A DNA stretch of 34,777 bases from contig PMTL01000074.1 in NCBI GenBank assembly GCA_003168075.1, positions 1 to 34,777 of the forward strand. The letters run 5' to 3'. The notes beneath the pieces are model-generated. The model had not been told where the DNA came from. It made no database searches and saw only the letters and a program-made list of their open reading frames with translations. The stretch is from Acidimicrobiaceae bacterium (GTDB lineage: Bacteria; Actinomycetota; Acidimicrobiia; Acidimicrobiales; RAAP-2). Positions 20,130-34,094 of the stretch are shown in pieces (the first letter of the stretch is position 1; every line of letters starts with the position of its first letter). The position numbers were made by a program, and so were the translations under genes.

Positions 20130-21743
20130 TTAGCGGTGGTTGCGCCTTCCGTGATCCTGGTGCTGGACCCAGGCGTAGTGGTAGATGGAGTTATCCCTCG
20201 TTCCAATCCAGACGTTAGTGGCAGTCACCGAATTGGTAACTCCCGATATCGCCGGTCCGAGACCCACAACCAAATCACCGATCCGAACGGAACGGAGGCT
20301 CGAGTTGCGGCCCCACGACCGGTAGACGGTCGATGAGGTGACGTCAATGGTCAAGGGGCTACCGTAGAAGCCCGTTACCGAGATGACGTCGCCCACGACG
20401 CTGGTGACCCGGCCGACGATGACCATGTTGCGCACCGTCACGAAGACTGCGGTCAACGAAGCCGACGGCGCGGCCGCCACGCGCACGACGTCACCAACGT
20501 TGATCTCAGCAATGGTCGAGATCTTGCGACCCGCAAAGTACGTCGTGGTGTCGGTCAGCGCGAAGGTGACGGGCAAGGAACCCGCGGTCTCCGGCTGCAC
20601 GATCAGTTGCGCGTTGGTGACACTTATGACGCTGCCGATGGTGATATCGGCCAACGGAGCTGAGATGTGCACTGCGCTCGCGACCAGTGGGTTACCACTG
20701 GCGCTGACGTCAACGTACGAACCCACCAACAGCGCCGCAACCGTGGTGACGGCCTTGAGCTGGTAGTACACCGTGCTCGAACCGAGTTCCACCGTGACCG
20801 GCGCCTTGAAGTGGCCCGGCTCAATGGTCACCGATGTCGGTGTACCGCTGGAAGGATTTAGTTCGGTTACCATGCCCTCGATAATGACGGGCTTGGGAAC
20901 CGCGATGCGCACTGTGCTCGCGGTCAAGGGGTTGCCACTGGCGACCACTTCGACCTTGGAGCCAACGAGGAGGTCAGCCACCGTCACAACGGCGCCCGAC
21001 TGCCTGTACACAGTGCTCGAACCGAGGTCAACGCTGAGCGCCACCGCGTGGTTGAAGTAGGGCAGGATGGTCACCGAGGTCGGCGTGCCGGTCGATGGCG
21101 ATAGCGCCGTGACCGTGCCGTCAATAACGACGGGCTTGGGAACGGCGATCTCCACAACGGTTGCCGTCGCGGGGTTACCCGTCGCTTCAAGCTCGACTTG
21201 TGAGCCCACCATCAACGACGTCACCGGGGTGATCTTTCCACCCAGGTAGTACAGGGTGCTAGTCCCGAGGTCAATGTTCACAGTCGGCTTCTTGAGGTCG
21301 CGCGGCTGGATGGTCACCGAGGTCGGCGTGCCGGTCGATGGCGATAGCGCCGTGACTGTGCCGCCCACGAAAATGGGCTCTGGGGACAAAATCCGCAATA
21401 TTTGCGCTGTTGCCGGACTGCCGGTCAGGGCAATCTGAACGGGCTCACCAAGTGCGAGAGCCGCAACCGTCACGTTGGCACCCGCCTGCTTGTAGATCGT
21501 GGTAGCGCTCAAGAGAATGTTCTCAGTAGGTGCATTGGGATTATGTGGTTGGATCGTCAACGACGTCGGCGTGCCGGTCGATGGCGTCAGCACCGTTACG
21601 GTTCCCTGAACGACCAGATCGGCTTTAGCAGTGGCGTTTGCTACGGGGCTCGCCATCGCAACCGCCGAGGAGGCGAAGACACTCGCCAGACTCAGTGCAG
21701 CGATGGCACCGTATCGAAATGCCTTATTGGTATGTGTCAACAT
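20130..21743 (-). CDS. Secreted repeat protein with tandem ~81-residue DUF5666-like domains
   Basis: This 537-residue secreted protein of unknown function begins with a classical signal peptide (basic THTNKAFRYG, hydrophobic AIAALSLASVFASSAVA, AMA-S cleavage region). Four tandem repeats of exactly 81 residues follow (about 44-367), each with a G-T/M-V-T-x-L header, then S-T-G-T-P-T-S-V-T-I, then a GS-S-T-V-Y strand, V-A-x-L-L-V-G-S and A-S-G-N-P. Two diverged repeats run to about 500, and the C-terminus is basic and aromatic. Small beta domains of this type are often labelled DUF5666. ATG at 21743 is chosen because GAGG lies 4 bases before it; ATGs at 21746 and 21758 are alternatives. It is a single-gene transcript between a hairpin and a long upstream region. 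Confidence 0.85.
   Translation of the reverse strand: MLTHTNKAFRYGAIAALSLASVFASSAVAMASPVANATAKADLVVQGTVTVLTPSTGTPTSLTIQPHNPNAPTENILLSATTIYKQAGANVTVAALALGEPVQIALTGSPATAQILRILSPEPIFVGGTVTALSPSTGTPTSVTIQPRDLKKPTVNIDLGTSTLYYLGGKITPVTSLMVGSQVELEATGNPATATVVEIAVPKPVVIDGTVTALSPSTGTPTSVTILPYFNHAVALSVDLGSSTVYRQSGAVVTVADLLVGSKVEVVASGNPLTASTVRIAVPKPVIIEGMVTELNPSSGTPTSVTIEPGHFKAPVTVELGSSTVYYQLKAVTTVAALLVGSYVDVSASGNPLVASAVHISAPLADITIGSVISVTNAQLIVQPETAGSLPVTFALTDTTTYFAGRKISTIAEINVGDVVRVAAAPSASLTAVFVTVRNMVIVGRVTSVVGDVISVTGFYGSPLTIDVTSSTVYRSWGRNSSLRSVRIGDLVVGLGPAISGVTNSVTATNVWIGTRDNSIYHYAWVQHQDHGRRNHR
20643..21614 (-). repeat. Four in-frame tandem repeats of exactly 243 bp
   Basis: Equivalent codons (the Ile of the T-I-x-P motif) end at 21554, 21311, 21068 and 20825, a constant 243-base step. 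Copies 2 and 3 share a near-identical stretch of about 50 bases (around 21067-21120 and 21310-21363), differing by very few bases. This suggests recent duplication or gene conversion. Boundaries are approximate because any phase of the repeat could be chosen. Confidence 0.85.
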
Positions 21744-21946
21744 CATTCCTCGATTCATTGGAGTTGCGTTACAAATCCACGCTACGAATCGAATTTCTGA
21801 AACGCCTGTCAAAAGGATTACAACCACCGTCACATTGTGAAAGTTGATTGCTGGTTGCCTGTGAATACCTTGAGAGAGTCCACCTGGGCAAGCTCCGTTG
21901 GTGAAGGAGTAAGGCTAATGTCACAAGCGGGGTCCAAACTGACCTT
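21744..21946. promoter_or_regulatory. Upstream region of the repeat-protein gene
   Basis: About 200 bases lie between the repeat-protein start and the TnpB remnant. The minus strand has TTGACA at 21813-21808, a good -35 match, but no clear -10 at 16-18 bases (ATTCGT and TTCGTA are poor), so the promoter call is tentative. On the plus strand a 10-codon open frame with GGAG (ATG at 21918, stop at 21948-21950) ends in an ATGA overlap with the remnant's ATG. No RNA gene was recognised. Confidence 0.25.
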
Positions 21947-27732: not shown

Positions 27733-28506
27733 CTAGAGATCGTCGACTAGTTCTGCGACGGAACCAACAACTCTCGATGGACGAAACGGGAAACGATCAA
27801 AATCCTCGATACCGTCCACGCCGGAGAGAACGAGGATGGTGTCTAGGCCGGCGTCGACGCCAGCCATAATGTCGGTCGCCATGCGGTCCCCGATCATGAC
27901 GGAACCTTTGGGGTTCGCTTCGAGGACGTCGAGAGCTTCTCGAATCATCCGTGCGTTGGGCTTGCCGACGAAGTACGGGGCGACGCCGGTGGCGCGTTCA
28001 ATGACGGCGGCCATTGCTCCACAGCCGGGCAACGAACCGCGCATGCCAGGGCCCGTCGGCTCGGGATTGGTGGCGACGAAGCGGCTGCCATTTTCAATGA
28101 GGCCAATCGCCGTAGCGAAGTCGTCGAATGAGTAGTCCTGGGTCTCACCGAGCACGACATAGTCAGCGTTATCCTTGACCTCTCGATAATTCACGTTGCG
28201 CAGGGCCAGGCGCAGACTCTCCTCGCCAATGACAAATGCACTCCCACCCGGTCGTTGCGAGTTGACGAACTCCGCAGTCGCGAGAGCCGAAGTCCAGAAC
28301 TGTGGCTCGTCAACGTCGAGTCCGACCGTGGCGAGGCGCTCGCTCAATTCTCGAGGAGAAAACATTGAATTATTCGTGAGCACCAAAAAATTGCGACGGG
28401 TTGAGCGCAGCCCATCGAGGAACCGATCAGCTCCCGACACCATGGAGTTCCCATGAAGTAATACGCCGTCCATGTCACAGAGCACGGTGCGCGGCAATTT
28501 GTTCAT
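27733..28506 (-). CDS. HAD-IIA family phosphatase (NagD/p-nitrophenylphosphatase-like)
   Basis: This 257-residue HAD hydrolase has all four motifs: CDMDGVLLHGN (nucleophile and acid Asp), VLTNNS, the Lys in VGKPNARMI, and MIGDRMATDIMAGVDAG (metal-binding Asp). A C2-type cap lies between motifs II and III, defining the HAD-IIA (NagD, phosphoglycolate/nucleotide phosphatase) group. The substrate is unknown. ATG at 28506 is the natural start, with GAGG just before it; TAAGGT at 28519-28514 would put +1 one base before the ATG. It converges on otsA with only 22 bases between the stop codons. Confidence 0.88.
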   Translation of the reverse strand: MNKLPRTVLCDMDGVLLHGNSMVSGADRFLDGLRSTRRNFLVLTNNSMFSPRELSERLATVGLDVDEPQFWTSALATAEFVNSQRPGGSAFVIGEESLRLALRNVNYREVKDNADYVVLGETQDYSFDDFATAIGLIENGSRFVATNPEPTGPGMRGSLPGCGAMAAVIERATGVAPYFVGKPNARMIREALDVLEANPKGSVMIGDRMATDIMAGVDAGLDTILVLSGVDGIEDFDRFPFRPSRVVGSVAELVDDL

Positions 28507-28867
28507 CACCTCTACCTTAGAGAACCACACTGGCCTGATCGGCGTCACGCGGATCGAAATATTGAGACCGACAACGCCGCACGATCACTACGACGCTTAC
28601 CCGGACCTCATTGCGACCTTCCGGCACCTTAGTCAGGTGACCATGCGACGGCCGGTACCGCACTGCGCCACCCGCAGCGACATTCGCGTACGACCTCGAC
28701 GTTGTGACCTTCGTCACATTGAAGAACGTGGCCGACGTATTGAGACCTTGTGGAGTCATCGACCACGAAGAGATGATCACGAATTCCTATGACGTTGTGC
28801 CCTACGTGGCTTCGTCAATCTGGGTCCATACTCGACAGGGGGGGTGAAACTAGCGAAGGGTGAAGTC
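28507..28867. other. 361-base divergent intergenic region
   Basis: This stretch separates the minus-strand HAD gene from the plus-strand secreted-protein cluster and must hold both promoters. No strong -35/-10 pair is obvious. A run of seven G residues lies at about 28839-28845, near the cluster's start. Small open frames on either strand look spurious. Confidence 0.4.
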
Positions 28868-29455
28868 ATGAAGAGAGTCCGTAGAGTCAGTTCGCTGGCC
28901 GCAGCCGGTTTGATTGGTGTGGTGGGTATCGGAACCACCGGAGCGGGAGCGGCAGCCACGCACAGCGTGCACGCAATCTCGACAAGTGCCCACGTCGCAA
29001 AGACGAAAAAACTCAGTTTCACAGCCACCTACAACGGCACCGTAAAAATCCTCTGGGGCGCCAGCAACGTTGACGGAACGATGAGCGGGACCGGTAAGGC
29101 AACCACACTTGGATCAGGTTCAATAACGGCCAGCGGCGCTACCACGTCGTTCTCGACCTCCAGTTCCTCCGATCCACTCCGTGGTAGCGCCGTACTCAAG
29201 GGCCCCGGTGGTTCACTCACCGTCTCGGCAGTAAATGTGAGCGCAACGACCACCTCCTCCGTCGCACCTACCAGTAAGGACCCCGACCCAGTCACCATTT
29301 CCGGGACGGTCAAGGTGTCCAAGGGAACGGGCAAGTTCGTTGGCGCGACCGGGACACTGAGCGTCCACGCCTCCTTCACGGTGAACACCACGTCAGGGAG
29401 TGAGAAGCAGAACTTTAATGCCACGCTCAAGGGTTCCTTGAACGTCAAAGCCTAA
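28868..29455 (+). CDS. Secreted protein of unknown function, beta-rich (cluster gene 1)
   Basis: This 195-residue protein starts at ATG 28868, with AAGGG upstream. It has a signal peptide (MKRVRRVSSLAAAGLIGVVG, then GAGAAATHS) and a Ser/Thr/Gly/Val-rich mature part (about 45-195) of alternating short strands. The segment GTVKVSKGTGKFVGATGTLS resembles the last strands of small secreted beta-barrels that contain a G-T-G-x-F/Y-x-G-A-T/R-G motif (allene oxide cyclase/dirigent-like). There are no cysteines, no lipobox and no obvious sorting signal. I do not recognise a specific family. It is first of three consecutive secreted-protein genes; the next begins 23 bases after its stop. Confidence 0.8.
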   Translation: MKRVRRVSSLAAAGLIGVVGIGTTGAGAAATHSVHAISTSAHVAKTKKLSFTATYNGTVKILWGASNVDGTMSGTGKATTLGSGSITASGATTSFSTSSSSDPLRGSAVLKGPGGSLTVSAVNVSATTTSSVAPTSKDPDPVTISGTVKVSKGTGKFVGATGTLSVHASFTVNTTSGSEKQNFNATLKGSLNVKA

Positions 29456-29478
29456 CGAGAAAGACAGGAGAAATACCC

Positions 29479-30120
29479 ATGAGAAAGATAGCAACACACG
29501 TCGCGGTAACTGCGATGGTTCTTGGCAGCGTGGCGTTTTTTGGAGCCACCAGTTCAGGTGCTTCAACCACCAAGGCCACTCCAGTAGCACCGCCCTTCGT
29601 GACCGGCAACAAGTACCTTTCGGTCAACGTTGACACCGTCACCGGCGCGGGTAGCCCGGGAGTAGTTGGAGGCGGTTGCTACTTAGAAAACAGCTTCATC
29701 CAGGGCCAGACAGTGGTCTTTCGTATGTGGGGAATTGACAACGCCACTGGTGGCCCACTGACCGGATCTCCCCTCGCTAAGGCGAACGTGCAAAGTGTGG
29801 TGATTAAGGACCTGCCGGGCGTTTCACCGAACCCGGTCATGGCGTACTCGACCAGAGACGGTTACTACACCTTCGGCTGGTCCACCTCAGCCAAGACTCC
29901 CACTGGTCTCGTACCCTTCAAGGTGATTGTCACCTTGGCTCCGACCAAGGCGGTCTACAAGACGATCCGCGTCAAGGTCGGTAGCAAGATGACCACCGTG
30001 AAGGTCGTCGTGCAAGCGGCGCACGGACCGGTCAGTTACGCCTACTCCGAGGCCAGCCTGACCAAGGGCACGGGTTCACTTCCGGCGCCGTCCATGTTGA
30101 CCATTAACGCCGCGGCGTGA
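29479..30120 (+). CDS. Secreted Ig-like protein of unknown function (cluster gene 2)
   Basis: This 213-residue protein has an AGGAG 8 bases before ATG 29479 and a signal peptide (MRKIATHVAVTAMVLGSVAFF, then SSGAS). The mature part contains GGCYLENSFIQGQTVVFRMW, a Gly/Pro loop, and YYTFGWSTSAKTPTGLVPFK, a pattern like extracellular Ig-like beta-sandwich domains that modulate partners or bind ligands. A single Cys lies near residue 67. The C-terminal third is basic, with a VKVGSKMTTVKVVVQ strand pair. No enzyme motif is seen and I do not recognise the family. It is probably co-transcribed with the preceding gene. Confidence 0.8.
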   Translation: MRKIATHVAVTAMVLGSVAFFGATSSGASTTKATPVAPPFVTGNKYLSVNVDTVTGAGSPGVVGGGCYLENSFIQGQTVVFRMWGIDNATGGPLTGSPLAKANVQSVVIKDLPGVSPNPVMAYSTRDGYYTFGWSTSAKTPTGLVPFKVIVTLAPTKAVYKTIRVKVGSKMTTVKVVVQAAHGPVSYAYSEASLTKGTGSLPAPSMLTINAAA

Positions 30121-30158
30121 TCTGAGAATTGAAGAAGTTACCGCATCACCAGCTGTTC

Positions 30159-30207
30159 CTTCGCAAGCCCGAACAACGTTACACCGGCCGAGTTCGGGCT
30201 TGCGAAG
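30159..30207 (+). terminator. 16-bp perfect inverted repeat between secreted-protein genes 2 and 3
   Basis: Arms 30159-30174 and 30192-30207 are perfect complements, with a 17-base loop (30175-30191). The repeat lies 39 bases after the gene 2 stop and 69 bases before the gene 3 start. It has no T-tract after it. It could terminate or attenuate transcription, protect the upstream mRNA, or be a protein-binding site. Confidence 0.5.
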
Positions 30208-30275
30208 TAGATCGCGACAGAAAGATCTTCTGCAGCGAGGAGGAACACGCCGTGAGGCGTGAAAGGAGTTCTCTC

Positions 30276-31958
30276 ATGTTCCAGGCACACCAACGAGGTC
30301 GTGGCCCTCGACTTCTGGGGCTCTTCGCCGCAGCGGTTTTACCCGTGGCCCTATTGATCAGTCCCAGCGGGGCTGCCACGGTTACGACTCCCACGGTCAA
30401 CCCAATAACCTTGGTAGCGCCCAGCCTCTTGCCGGGCGTGCCCGCACTCCCGGGACCGCTGAGTCCTTCCTTTACTGTCGCCAACTCCCTCGGCTCGATC
30501 AGTGCCAGTCCTGATGAAGGCGTGCAAAATACTCCCGTCACTTTGAGCGGCGCGGGACTCGCCGTCAACGCAAAGGTGGCCATCGAGTGGTCAACATCGA
30601 GCGCCACCTGGGTCGCCGATGTGGAACCAAACACGGTGAACTACTTGGGTCGCGCCTCGTCGACCTTCAACGTGACCTTGGCCACCGTCACCACGAACGC
30701 GAGTGGCGCCTTTAGCTATCAGTTCAACGCGCCGGCTGACTTCGGTGGACTGCACACCATCTACGCGGTGGTGAACGGAGTCGAAGTCGCCCAGGGTGGA
30801 TTCACCCTATTGCGCATACTGAGCGTCACTCCGACCAGTGGGCCTATCGGCACGCCAATCACCATTACCTACACCGGAATGGGTGCGAGTCTCTACACCG
30901 GCGGCGCATCGGTGCTCTACGACAATCACTACACCGGCGAGATGATGGCGAACTGGACTCGCGGTACGGCCAGCATCGTGATCCGCGCCGCTGGTCCCGT
31001 CGGCGTGCACTTCATTCAAGTCGGCAACGCCATCAGTTATCTCTACCTCAACGTGGTGCAGTCGCCGATCCCCTACACCAACGGGGGCACCGTGGATTTT
31101 CACGTGACCAAGGACAATGGTCCGCCGGCCTCGGTCATTGACTGGCCGGCTAACGTCACCGCCACCGTGAGTCAAGTGACCACGTTGTCGACCGCGGGTC
31201 TGGACCCCAACTCCAAGGCGGTCGCCACGCTCGCCAGGACCGTGGGACCCGTCGACACGCTGACGACCTTGAACGTGACGGGTCTACCCACGACCGGCAC
31301 CCAGAAGTTGGTCTGGTCGACCGTTGTGGGTAACCGGGTGAACTGCGACAGTACGTGCTGGGCCTTTAACTCGGTGCCGCTCGGGTCAGCGACCGTCACT
31401 AACGGTGATCTCAGCGCTCCCATAAAGATCCCCGACGGTCTCGGCGGCTGGCACGTCGTTCAGGTTCTGAACGGTTCCACCATTGAGGCCCAAGTGCCCT
31501 TCTACGTCAAAGAGAGCATCGTGGCCTTCAAGAACGTGAAGGGCACGATCGTAAGCATGGGGCTCGCGACAGCAAACGACACGACGGCGGGACTCGGCAC
31601 TGGTCAAGCCGGTGCGGGTAGTCACGTGTTCAAGGAGGGTCAGGAGTTCACGATCAGTATCAAGGGCGTGGGGTGGACCCAACTCGACAATACTCTGGGC
31701 GTGGACTACGACAACAGTTACATGGGCTATGGCTGCGGCTTCAACTCCAACGGCTACATGGTGATTCACCTGCGTGCCACCGGTGGACCAGGTACACACC
31801 TGATTGACCTTTATCCCATGCTCTATTCACTCTCACCGTCCTTCGCCAGCACGCCGTACGGCATGGTGCCAGTTCTCTCCTACGCTCGCGACTACCCCGG
31901 TCTCGCCTTGGGATATCACGTGCCGGCGATTCGCTTCGCTATCACGGTCATTAAGTAA
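30276..31958 (+). CDS. Large secreted IPT/TIG-like protein of unknown function (cluster gene 3)
   Basis: This 560-residue secreted protein starts at ATG 30276, with AAAGGAG 8 bases upstream; an in-frame TTG at 30129 would run through the hairpin and is unlikely. The signal peptide is RLLGLFAAAVLPVALLI then PSGAATV. The mature region has several IPT/TIG-like beta domains, seen in SASPDEGVQNTPVTLSGAGL and SVTPTSGPIGTPITITYTGM. Two distant segments (about residues 199-255 and 462-513) share a YDN-x-Y-x-G core followed by I-x-L/I-R-A-x-G-x-x-G-x-H-x-I, so they look like an internal duplication. Few Cys (NCDSTCW near 355, GYGCG near 485). There is no anchor or lipobox; it is probably released or a surface-layer component. 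No family is recognised with confidence. Confidence 0.82.
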   Translation: MFQAHQRGRGPRLLGLFAAAVLPVALLISPSGAATVTTPTVNPITLVAPSLLPGVPALPGPLSPSFTVANSLGSISASPDEGVQNTPVTLSGAGLAVNAKVAIEWSTSSATWVADVEPNTVNYLGRASSTFNVTLATVTTNASGAFSYQFNAPADFGGLHTIYAVVNGVEVAQGGFTLLRILSVTPTSGPIGTPITITYTGMGASLYTGGASVLYDNHYTGEMMANWTRGTASIVIRAAGPVGVHFIQVGNAISYLYLNVVQSPIPYTNGGTVDFHVTKDNGPPASVIDWPANVTATVSQVTTLSTAGLDPNSKAVATLARTVGPVDTLTTLNVTGLPTTGTQKLVWSTVVGNRVNCDSTCWAFNSVPLGSATVTNGDLSAPIKIPDGLGGWHVVQVLNGSTIEAQVPFYVKESIVAFKNVKGTIVSMGLATANDTTAGLGTGQAGAGSHVFKEGQEFTISIKGVGWTQLDNTLGVDYDNSYMGYGCGFNSNGYMVIHLRATGGPGTHLIDLYPMLYSLSPSFASTPYGMVPVLSYARDYPGLALGYHVPAIRFAITVIK

Positions 31959-31978
31959 AACTGCCCGTCAGAGCATCG

Positions 31979-32016
31979 AACACGCCCCGTCATCCTCTTG
32001 GGTGGCGGGGCGTGTT
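31979..32016. terminator. Bidirectional terminator hairpin between convergent genes
   Basis: Arms 31979-31995 and 32000-32016 form a 17-bp stem (11 perfect outer pairs, then mostly paired with G-T wobbles) around a TCTT loop. It begins 20 bases after the stop of secreted gene 3 and ends 2 bases before the stop of the MMPL gene, so it can serve both strands. The following U-tract is weak. Confidence 0.75.
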
Positions 32017-32018
32017 CT

Positions 32019-34094
32019 TCAGCGCAGGGCCCGATCGCCCATCAACGTGAGACACGCCGGTAAGACGAGTCCGCGAACGAGACTGGCGTCGACCAGCACT
32101 CCCGCGGCCAGGCCCACGCCGAGTTCCTGTAGTCCGGCGATGTGGCCCAGTACCAGTCCACTCAGTGCTCCCACCATGATCAGGGCCGCCGCACTCACGA
32201 CGCCCCCAGTGTTGGCGAGACCACTCTCTATCGCTGCGTCCCACGAAAGACCGGTATCTCGAGCCTCGCGCATGCGCGCCACGATGAAGACCTCGTAGTC
32301 CATCGAGAGCCCAAAGAGCATGGCGAAGACAAACACGGGCACCCACCCCTCGATCTGGTCGACGCGGTAGGTACCCAGCCACGACTCCCCCACTCCAAAA
32401 CGAAAGACCGCCACCATGGCGCCGTACGCCGCCACGACGCTCAGGAGGTCCAAGACGATCGCCAACACCGCGAGGGCGAGCGAGCGAAATGCCCGCCAGA
32501 GGATCACGAGTGCCGACGCCATGGCTAGCGCCACGATCCAGGGGAATGACCCGTATACGCGGTTCAAGAAATCAACACCCTGCGCCGGGGCGCCACCGAC
32601 GTAGACCTGCACGCCGCGAGGTAAGTCAGCCGCCGGCACATCAAGGTCCCGAATCCGAGCGACGAGTGCCTGCGACGCCTCAGCTCCGAACTGGTGGCCG
32701 CCAATAACAAAGAGTTGCGCGTAGCGACCAGTGGCGTCAACATAGGGAGCCTTTACCCCAATGACTACGCCCACCACTTCGGGCTCGGCCAGTATTATTG
32801 TGCCCAGGCGTGTCTCTACGCGTTGTAGAGCGGTACTGCGCCAATTCTCCCCCGCGGGGGCGACCAGCACCACTTGATCGGGAGTTATCACACCCGGGCC
32901 GACGTGCTTGTTCATGAAAGTGTTGGCCGCAGCCGAAGGAAGTGTCGCCGGAATGGCGCTCAGCGAGCCGGGGGTAAGTTGCAACCACCACAGACTCGAA
33001 CCGCACAGCGCCACCGCGGCCAGAGACAACACCAACATGGTTCGCGGCCGACGCAACACGAGGTGCGTTGTCTTGGACCAGCCCACCGCCAGTCGGTCGC
33101 GTTCGCCCATGAGTCCAGGAACACCCAGCGTGCGTAGGCCGCGAGCGCCCAGTAGCGACAGCAACACTGGTTGCAACGTCAGCGCCGCCGCCATTGACAC
33201 GAGCGGTACCACGATTCCCGCCGCCCCCAATGAACGAAGGAAGGGCACCGGCACAAGGAGCAAGGTGGCTAAACCGACGCTCACCGCGAGGCCCGAGATG
33301 ACCACGGTGCGTCCCGCCCGCAACACCGTGGCGACCACGGCGTCCGCGGTTGAAGTGGCACGTGTCATTTCGAAACGGAAACGGTGAACAATCAGTAGGG
33401 AGTAATCAATGGCTAGGCCGAGTCCGATCAGCCCAATGACGTTAGGAACGTACAGCACCATCAGCACCACGTGAGCGAGAAGGTACACCACCACCAGCGA
33501 GGTCGAGATCGTGGCGCCGGCGACCACGAAGGGGACCGCGACTACCCCACAGAGTCCGAGCAATGCAATCAACAGAACCAGCGCCACTAACAGAGCTATC
33601 AATTCGCCCCTGCGCAAATCGCCTTTCAACACCGGAGTGATGTCACTTTGCAGCGCCGCCGGACCCGTGACGAGTGCCCGGTCGAGCCCGTCCTGCGCGA
33701 GAGCGTGGCGGAGCCGTCCCGTCGCGTCAGCGGCGTGGGCCAGGTTCAAATTGGTGTCGGCCTCGATGTAGAGCACTCCACTGAGTTCCTTAGCCTGCAG
33801 GATCTGGCCCGTGGGAATCGTCCGCACGGCGTCTGTCACTCGGCGCTCGATCGAGGTGATGCCTTGACCGTCGGCCACTACCACAATTGAGAAAGAACCT
33901 TCAACGTTCTCGTGAAAATGAGTCGCGAGGATCACATTGGCTTGCGCCGATTCGGAGCCCGGGACACTGAGTGACGTCGAAAGCCGCGCGTTGAGAGCGC
34001 CATTCACCATCAGCCCGAGGACGGCGAGCAGAACCCAAACAATGATTACGATGCCGCGGTGGCGCAGCAGTGAGCGGGTCCACCGGGTCAACAT
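32019..34094 (-). CDS. MMPL-family RND transporter
   Basis: This 691-residue membrane protein has the twelve-helix, two-half RND plan: an N-terminal helix, a first extracytoplasmic domain (about 40-180), helices 2-6, a cytosolic loop with LRTLGVPGLMGERDRLAVGW, helix 7, a second extracytoplasmic domain (about 390-520) and helices 8-12. The proton-relay Asp-Tyr pairs of MmpL proteins are present in both halves: D230-Y231 in GLAIDYSLLIVHRF and D599-Y600 in FGLSMDYEVFIVARMRE. Relatives export lipids or small hydrophobic compounds. Length fits the short actinobacterial MMPL group rather than MmpL3. The ATG at 34094 has no Shine-Dalgarno and is predicted to be leaderless. No substrate can be inferred. 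Confidence 0.93.
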   Translation of the reverse strand: MLTRWTRSLLRHRGIVIIVWVLLAVLGLMVNGALNARLSTSLSVPGSESAQANVILATHFHENVEGSFSIVVVADGQGITSIERRVTDAVRTIPTGQILQAKELSGVLYIEADTNLNLAHAADATGRLRHALAQDGLDRALVTGPAALQSDITPVLKGDLRRGELIALLVALVLLIALLGLCGVVAVPFVVAGATISTSLVVVYLLAHVVLMVLYVPNVIGLIGLGLAIDYSLLIVHRFRFEMTRATSTADAVVATVLRAGRTVVISGLAVSVGLATLLLVPVPFLRSLGAAGIVVPLVSMAAALTLQPVLLSLLGARGLRTLGVPGLMGERDRLAVGWSKTTHLVLRRPRTMLVLSLAAVALCGSSLWWLQLTPGSLSAIPATLPSAAANTFMNKHVGPGVITPDQVVLVAPAGENWRSTALQRVETRLGTIILAEPEVVGVVIGVKAPYVDATGRYAQLFVIGGHQFGAEASQALVARIRDLDVPAADLPRGVQVYVGGAPAQGVDFLNRVYGSFPWIVALAMASALVILWRAFRSLALAVLAIVLDLLSVVAAYGAMVAVFRFGVGESWLGTYRVDQIEGWVPVFVFAMLFGLSMDYEVFIVARMREARDTGLSWDAAIESGLANTGGVVSAAALIMVGALSGLVLGHIAGLQELGVGLAAGVLVDASLVRGLVLPACLTLMGDRALR

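Follow-up and report, generated by a model that had tools for sequence, protein, structure and literature searches.

What do three adjacent genes do when each product carries an export signal and none belongs to a family that can be named? The question is raised by a 34,777-nucleotide contig of an Acidimicrobiaceae bacterium (PMTL01000074.1), here called the window, in which a sequence-only reading had described three consecutive plus-strand open reading frames between 28868 and 31958 as a closed unit of secreted proteins, each with a good ribosome site, a signal peptide and an Ig/IPT-like body. The frames are present at those positions: g1 (28868..29455, +) encodes a protein of 195 residues, g2 (29479..30120, +) one of 213 residues and g3 (30276..31958, +) one of 560 residues. 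All three are preceded by purine-rich ribosome sites (AAGGGTGA, AGGAG and AAAGGAG, as read from the sequence) and begin, by inspection, with signal peptides of the basic/hydrophobic/AxA type, in agreement with what had been described. Gene order and strand are maintained among homologues, and comparison of the window with L113, L114 and L115 gives dN/dS values of 0.16–0.31 for g1, 0.19–0.21 for g2 and 0.08–0.12 for g3; the three ORFs behave as real genes. They have also remained without a family name: Pfam and NCBIfam give no match above curated cut-off, PADLOC and PHROGs none with an E-value of 0.01 or less, and no credible sequence relative was found in the PDB. A role in anti-phage defence was rejected on the PADLOC result. 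A phage or mobile origin was likewise rejected, with no PHROGs match and no match of g3 in viral contigs or phage records.

The claim that the three genes form a closed unit does not hold, because a convergent gene for an MmpL3-like MMPL/RND transporter (32019..34094, −; 691 residues) is a fourth conserved part. The unit is larger than the trio and includes this gene, and the linkage is well supported. Among the 80 named loci, taken as the top 80 of 200 relatives that g3 retrieved and hence chosen by g3, g2 is present in 73/73 loci whose contig reaches far enough, g1 in 66/67 and the MMPL gene in 69/70; a looser count, taking any found gene as testable, gives 78/78, 72/73 and 75/77, and the stricter figures are used here. 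Clustering of the flanks shows that the other neighbouring genes differ between loci, and no cargo gene, such as a lipid or polyketide synthase, recurs beside the module in this clustering, which is not a gene-by-gene annotation. One locus (L160) has g2 and g3 with g1 and MMPL absent within 6 kb. An apparent g2–g3 fusion in L154, where one ORF matches both profiles, was not counted, as that ORF crosses undetermined bases (X).

Within the genus, 27 of 37 members bear g3 (the window's own genome included), and all 27 also have g1, g2 and the same MMPL subtype. In every one except G010 the three genes are neighbours, so that the check on co-conservation proposed with the sequence-only reading supports it, in line with the counts at the named loci. 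The subtype is recognized by at least 47% identity across most of the protein (one truncated copy has 66%), while the other genus MMPLs passing 1e-60 are 29–34% alike, bar one 50% fragment in G001; the sole additional genus genome with the subtype is G004, where the copy lies at a contig edge. In G005 the MMPL gene, and in G010 both g1 and the MMPL gene, are unlinked, on other contigs and away from contig ends, yet are kept. Further afield, g3 was found in 80 of 296 genomes from the order of acI strain IMCC19121. Trees of the four genes have 13–19 of 31–38 supported splits in common, against at most 2 when labels are shuffled, and partly conflict (6–21 splits); trees and distances cover 51 loci plus the window, excluding loci without one full-length gene and six odd loci (L154, L171, L162, L123, L141 and L152). 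Named loci and those from the genus genomes overlap (L114 is the G009 contig), and residue counts are therefore given on distinct sequences; profile E-values for the named loci, the distant clusters and Deinococcus refer to small ORF sets rather than to a database.

The non-coding parts of the locus point to candidate control elements. Upstream of g1, the element TGACGTTGTGCCCTA (28790..28804, +) is conserved in near relatives and is a candidate operator or promoter element; of 67 upstream regions, 28 contain an element of its class where 1.5 would be expected, for a pattern chosen after the data were seen. A candidate −10 region, GGGTCCATACT (28822..28832, +), is conserved in near relatives (5/5, L113–L117), where its start lies 35–46 nt downstream of that of the extended TTATGACGT..TGCCCTA element. 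A scan of the window found no sigma-70-type promoters, and Rfam gives no RNA element above gathering score in 28400–32200. The g2–g3 gap holds a hairpin with 16-bp perfect arms and no T-run after it (30159..30207, +), and this gap folds at z −5.0 against mononucleotide shuffles (30 per locus), in a control of 65 rows that leaves out L154, L171, L162 and L123, loci missing one of g1–g3, and loci with a called g3 start that precedes g2 or follows it by under about 10 nt. As the MMPL gene is convergent, it is not co-transcribed with g1–g3; between the converging ends of g3 and MMPL lies a terminator-like palindrome (31978..32017) with 18-nt arms that are 89% complementary. The sequence-only reading had placed a bidirectional terminator at this end of the trio: the palindrome exists, and since a T-tail terminator scan does not pick it, that role is only plausible.

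The transporter is the member of the module whose family can be named, matching PF03176 with 196 bits against a gathering score of 20.5. Its nearest solved relative is MmpL3 (7nvh, E 6.2e-51); it scores 193.6 bits against the NCBIfam equivalog for MmpL3, the trehalose monomycolate exporter, for which the cut-off is 1400, and 149 bits, also below cut-off, against the ActII-type MMPL exporters of TIGR00833. Asp-Tyr pairs in both halves of MMPL proteins form the proton relay, and here D230-Y231 and D599-Y600 are present in 65/65 distinct proteins, which is consistent with a proton-driven transporter. For MmpL3, accessory proteins such as LpqN and TtfA have been proposed (PMC7458404). The mycobacterial system likewise links an MMPL-family transporter with both Asp-Tyr pairs to exported partners, whereas the partners themselves differ, being g1–g3 here. 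A relationship of g2 to LpqN was considered and rejected, the match (E 0.04, profile A2) covering residues 1–59 alone, mainly the signal-peptide region.

For g1, the Ig/IPT-like body suggested earlier gives way to a predicted eight-stranded beta-barrel of the allene oxide cyclase (AOC)/dirigent type. The model has ten-residue means of 68–94 past residue 40 and resembles AOC, dirigent, 2q03, PodA and spirotetronate-cyclase barrels at Z 11–13 (2q03, which we take to be of the DUF3224 type, Z 13.1; 5k21, 12.7; 4h6c, 11.6; 1zvc and AbyU, about 11–13). 8th2 reaches Z 11.5 but at an rmsd of 7.3, outer-membrane barrels such as NspA reach Z 11.0 as well, and the best Foldseek hit (E 0.01) is weak alone. 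The model is all-beta like the AOC, dirigent, DUF3224 and PodA barrels over about 114–131 residues, whereas identity is 8–17%, no Pfam-A match to an AOC/dirigent-type family was found among 24 homologues and none in NCBIfam for g1, and there is no clear conserved catalytic set, because in a 24-row alignment Y55 is the only invariant residue besides glycines and hydrophobics (H42, D102 and K194 are nearly invariant). Barrels of this fold bind small hydrophobic ligands; the shared fold shows no function by itself. Of the bacterial dirigent-like proteins surveyed in PMC9344732, most have signal peptides.

For g3, the Ig/IPT-like description fits better. It is predicted to form an Ig-like rod of four domains arranged as a duplicated pair: the model has a mean pLDDT of 79.6, domain 313–412 gives Z 9.8 with an rmsd of 2.3 over 88 residues, and the two halves align to each other with an hhalign probability of 99.5 (E 2.5e-22). 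The window protein reaches 16.9 bits against TIG, below the Pfam cut-off of 20.9, the distant homologue L111 just passes it at 21.3 bits, and, at E ≤ 0.1, 5 of 29 homologues contain a TIG-like stretch, the best at 9e-5. The modelled chain of Ig-like sandwiches is what g3 shares with repeat proteins of the IPT/TIG and other Ig-like kinds; it differs from them in its fixed four-domain duplicated design, an invariant cysteine (C487) and a dedicated partner, g2. One distant homologue of g3 is carried on a plasmid.

That partnership is suggested by one invariant cysteine in each protein, C67 of g2 in 92/92 distinct sequences and C487 of g3 in 97/97 distinct sequences reaching that position. Mature cysteine counts are odd in 88/88 g2 and 89/92 g3 sequences, with even counts in the g2' of L221 and the g3 of L183, and C357 and C361 of g3 occur as a pair, both absent from six distant relatives that keep C487. 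From this conservation, the two proteins would probably form a heterodimer held by a C67–C487 disulfide. A derivation of g2 from a diverged g3 domain was rejected, hhalign giving a probability below 1% against all four g3 domains.

The g2–g3 pair is an older one, found beyond the window-type module. Adjacent g2' and g3' genes occur in four distant Acidimicrobiia clusters with readable neighbours (L221–L224), all of which also encode the NrfD and 4Fe-4S genes of polysulfide-reductase-like membrane complexes, whereas no NrfD or Fe-S gene belongs to the window-type module. On a Deinococcus plasmid, g2 and g3 are adjacent (HLB42_19035/HLB42_19030 of Deinococcus sp. D7000) and follow AzlC/AzlD genes; the annotation shows no MMPL within 12 kb and no NrfD/4Fe-4S-type redox gene nearby. 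With such different neighbours, g2–g3 is not specific to MMPL. A tentative possibility, which we rate well short of an even chance, is that g2–g3 is an undescribed two-protein exoplasmic adaptor with one inter-protein disulfide, which evolution has joined to more than one kind of membrane machinery. In peat Acidimicrobiia and freshwater acI-type Actinobacteria its partners would be an MmpL3-like exporter and a barrel that carries the ligand, in other Acidimicrobiia they would be NrfD/4Fe-4S redox complexes, and in Deinococcus it would have neither of these.

For the window itself, there is about an even chance that g1–g3 and the MMPL protein make up a four-gene module exporting a hydrophobic molecule, with g1–g3 as its exported half. 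The MmpL3-like transporter, driven by protons, would bring a hydrophobic or amphiphilic molecule, such as a lipid or a metabolite resembling one, to the outside of the membrane. A complex of g2 and g3 would be its exoplasmic partner, on or near the transporter, and g1, the secreted barrel, would bind the molecule and take it across the cell wall or out to the medium; conversion of the molecule by g1 is a less likely alternative to binding. Export or shuttling of a hydrophobic compound is favoured because the pairing with one transporter subtype is constant and because g1 is predicted to be of a barrel type that binds small molecules. The same two points weigh against the surface, adhesion or polymer-binding function first suggested for the trio, which persists as a rival and which we consider rather unlikely: g1–g3 would be surface, adhesion or matrix proteins, with g3 as an Ig-like rod and the basic tail of g2 on a wall polymer, and they would be anchored or modified by a lipid or glycolipid that the MMPL exports. 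The g3 beads do resemble adhesin and S-layer domains (7ptp, SiiE, FdeC) among many others, and g2 homologues show, by inspection, Thr-rich linkers and a basic C-terminal part; however, complement and alpha-2-macroglobulin domains are matched first (the VIA rows for g3 span mainly 69–414 and barely cover the last domain), and g3 evolves slowly, with dN/dS about 0.1, where many adhesins evolve less slowly. Pfam and NCBIfam match no anchor domain in g1–g3, inspection reveals no anchoring signal, and the LPTTG of g3 is internal, with no hydrophobic tail behind it.

The distant clusters lend themselves to a different, improbable account, in which the g2–g3 pair would be accessory to electron-transfer complexes on the exoplasmic side and the module would serve redox processes in the envelope, with the MMPL as the source of a hydrophobic cofactor or a compound resembling a quinone. 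Besides the NrfD and 4Fe-4S genes common to all four, L224 has cytochrome c/EB_dh and the g2' of L221 a sub-threshold cupredoxin-like domain. At the window-type loci, by contrast, flank clustering finds no constant redox gene, and window-type g2 and g3 have no redox domain above cut-off (one g2 homologue gives a weak copper-monooxygenase match, E 0.038), nor does the Deinococcus pair have an annotated redox neighbour. Rhodopsin is above the PF01036 cut-off in 0/37 genus members, with one weak match below it, and a retinal or rhodopsin link was rejected. There is, finally, a slim chance that g1 is an exported enzyme, like an AOC, spirotetronate cyclase or PodA, finishing or detoxifying a natural product that the MMPL pumps out; PodA, PloI4, AbyU and allene oxide cyclases are among its best fold matches and the transporter is related to the ActII-type exporters, whereas the lack of a clear catalytic set in g1 and of biosynthetic genes recurring in the clustered flanks argues against it.

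Our searches of open-licence PMC papers showed none describing the four-gene module. That many bacteria of peat and fresh water keep the four genes together suggests an export system for an oily molecule that has yet to be described. Direct tests are already feasible through the two invariant cysteines, the g1 barrel and the Deinococcus pair. With the export module, the pairing of MmpL3-type transport with exported partners of its own would reach past the mycobacterial case, and genetics could be used to learn what these cells deliver to their surface or their environment. If the adaptor reading of g2–g3 is true, the window module would be devoted to the export and shuttling of a hydrophobic compound, and even streamlined genomes would have retained it.

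Three adjacent plus-strand genes, g1 (28868-29455), g2 (29479-30120) and g3 (30276-31958), lie where the sequence-only reading had placed them; inspection shows a ribosome site for every one of them and a signal peptide in every product. Comparison with three relatives gives dN/dS values of 0.16–0.31 for g1, 0.19–0.21 for g2 and 0.08–0.12 for g3, and all three genes are thus under purifying selection. That reading could name no family for them, and the same holds for Pfam, where none of the three window proteins scores above cut-off and the TIG match of g3 stays sub-threshold, for NCBIfam (zero matches) and for PADLOC and PHROGs (zero matches at E ≤ 0.01). Profile searches of PDB sequences give zero matches for g3 and chance-level ones for g1 and g2. 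TIG is matched in 5 of 29 g3 homologue rows at E ≤ 0.1, and a distant homologue, L111, barely exceeds its cut-off (21.3 vs 20.9). Elsewhere in the window, outside this unit, the minus strand at 20130-21833 encodes a 567-aa protein that looks exported and contains several imperfect repeats (GTVTALSPSTGTPTSVTI...).

The three genes had been taken for a closed unit; the unit is instead one of four genes, g1–g3 together with a convergent gene for a 691-aa MMPL/RND transporter (32019-34094, minus strand). Across 61 genomes (the window's own, 36 genus-mates and 24 from the order), searches recovered g1 from 28, g2 from 26 and g3 from 29; the g2 match of genome G050 is interrupted by stops, and G044 matches with a distant g3 homologue. 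Of the 37 genus members, 27 have a strong g3 match, as does G051, from another family; g1 and g2 accompany it every time, and the final three of the g2 copies were recovered by tblastn. In most loci, neighbour clustering shows g3 followed by a convergent MMPL gene, with differing upstream genes. A search with the window MMPL finds the close subtype in every one of the 27 genus members that carry g3, in G051 and in G004, where it abuts a contig edge, on the flank where g3 would be expected. In G005 the MMPL gene, and in G010 both g1 and the MMPL gene, are on other contigs, away from contig ends, and both genomes keep all four genes. In 80 named loci fetched by the g3 profile (the best 80 of 200), with each gene counted where the contig reaches far enough, g2 is present in 73/73, g1 in 66/67 and an opposite-strand MMPL gene in 69/70; the sole miss, L160, lacks both g1 and MMPL within 6 kb. 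The expectation that g1–g3 are co-conserved neighbours is thereby borne out, the unlinked g1 of G010 being kept. The convergent g3–MMPL gap has a median of 20 bp, and the genes surrounding the core differ between groups of loci. Trees of the four genes have 13–19 of 31–38 supported splits in common (at most 2 in label shuffles) and 6–21 conflicting splits, and their pairwise distances correlate at 0.72–0.79. Four-gene linkage is well supported. One module, at L123 1580-5382, carries two tandem g3 genes.

The nearest solved chain to the transporter is MmpL3 (E 6e-51); the transporter scores far under the MmpL3 equivalog cut-off, and both Asp-Tyr pairs are kept in 65/65 proteins. The g1 model is eight-stranded (mean pLDDT 76; ten-residue means of 68–94 past residue 40), and VIA-align matches it to 2q03 (Z 13.1, rmsd 2.2, 120 residues), pyocyanin demethylase 5k21 (Z 12.7, rmsd 2.2, 114 residues), allene oxide cyclase 4h6c (Z 11.6, rmsd 2.4, 120 residues) and dirigent 8th2 (Z 11.5, rmsd 7.3, 128 residues). 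Against this barrel match stand a weak result from Foldseek alone (E 0.01) and outer-membrane barrels reaching Z 11.0 (NspA). Three g1 homologues (L093 1590-2288, L102 8677-9468, L105 9289-9966) have a cysteine-containing insert (CY.GK...CP.G.TTKKP), perhaps a wall-binding piece, ahead of the barrel. The g3 model consists of Ig-like domains (mean pLDDT 79.6); domains of alpha-2-macroglobulin and complement are the top matches, and beads of adhesins and S-layers are listed as well. By hhalign its halves are homologous (E 2.5e-22), the first domain pairing with the third (D1-D3, E 2.2e-14) and the second with the fourth (D2-D4, E 5.3e-8).

C67 of g2 is present in 92/92 distinct sequences and C487 of g3 in all 97 that reach that position, and the mature cysteine count is odd in 88/88 g2 and 89/92 g3 proteins, the exceptions being two truncated proteins and that of L183; this pattern fits a putative inter-protein g2–g3 disulfide. 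C357 occurs in 110/110 window-type g3 rows and 0/6 distant ones, and C361 follows it. Phylum and class searches found a distant subfamily, g3', with a g2 homologue (g2') upstream in 4/4 loci that have upstream sequence (L221–L224). NrfD and 4Fe-4S genes adjoin the pair in all four, L224 adding a cytochrome c/EB_dh protein, and this neighbourhood looks like an undescribed electron-transfer cluster. The g2' of L221 has an even cysteine number and is joined to a cupredoxin/CuA-like domain (sub-threshold match). In another phylum, plasmid p_2 of Deinococcus sp. D7000 (CP058536.1, L229 11311-13293) carries a pair annotated as hypothetical proteins, HLB42_19035/19030, with exactly one cysteine each. 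The pair follows AzlC/AzlD genes of the same orientation; its annotation has no MMPL or NrfD within 12 kb. The g2–g3 pair appears to be an older element inside the module.

Two regions suggest control. The g2–g3 gap holds a strong hairpin (30159-30207; 16-bp arms, gap z −5.0) that lacks a T-run. Perfect stems of at least 10 bp occur there in 41/65 loci (shuffle means about 2–7), namely 35/42 at GC of at least 55% and 6/23 below, and the hairpin sequence differs between loci (L113–L192). A role as attenuator or as mRNA-end stabiliser, setting g3 below g1–g2, is possible. Before g1, a conserved element of the pattern TGAC-N5-7-(A/C/G)(C/A)(C/A)TA is found in 28 of 67 regions (L113–L192) against 1.5 expected, a count qualified by the post hoc choice of the pattern and by the relatedness of the regions; it has a TTATGACGTT.TGCCCTA form near the window and TGTGACC.A.GGAATA forms in low-GC loci. 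In the window, two related copies (28698-28714 and 28791-28807) stand 93 bp apart, and in the low-GC locus L159 three copies stand 30 bp apart; the element is a candidate operator.

Among the best 80 of 200, records with g3 are Acidimicrobiaceae MAGs with palsa, bog or fen in their names; MAGs of other Actinomycetota, many of them under the label 'uncultured actinobacterium'; and a complete genome, that of strain IMCC19121, which PMC5301498 places in tribe acI-A7. At E ≤ 1e-3, g3 is found in 80/296 genomes of that strain's order (one marginal), in 6/396 drawn evenly across the window's phylum (own genome included, two marginal) and in 16/395 across its class (own included, one marginal). Genus members lacking g3 include small genomes (1.3–1.5 Mb) and some of 2.0–2.1 Mb, and the small genomes G002 and G024 have it. 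In a midpoint-rooted tree, the low-GC sequences fall into a single clade. L094 (G002:C42) and L095 (G026:C72) carry the same module with an identical g2 protein, G026 also having its own second copy, and mis-binning is possible. L113 and L153, from MAGs labelled Acidobacteria (G2_27, G2_25), have modules grouping with Acidimicrobiia; these bins are likely mislabelled or mixed.

PMC7458404 describes MMPL proteins, with accessory proteins, as carrying envelope lipids and siderophores. The main weakness of an export reading of the module is that neighbour clustering of its loci recognised no cargo genes and that g2–g3 pairs exist elsewhere without MMPL. Export is probably the most economical reading of this module, whose folds are predicted: the MMPL pump would export a hydrophobic compound, with g2–g3 as its exoplasmic partner, and the g1 barrel would bind and carry the exported compound.
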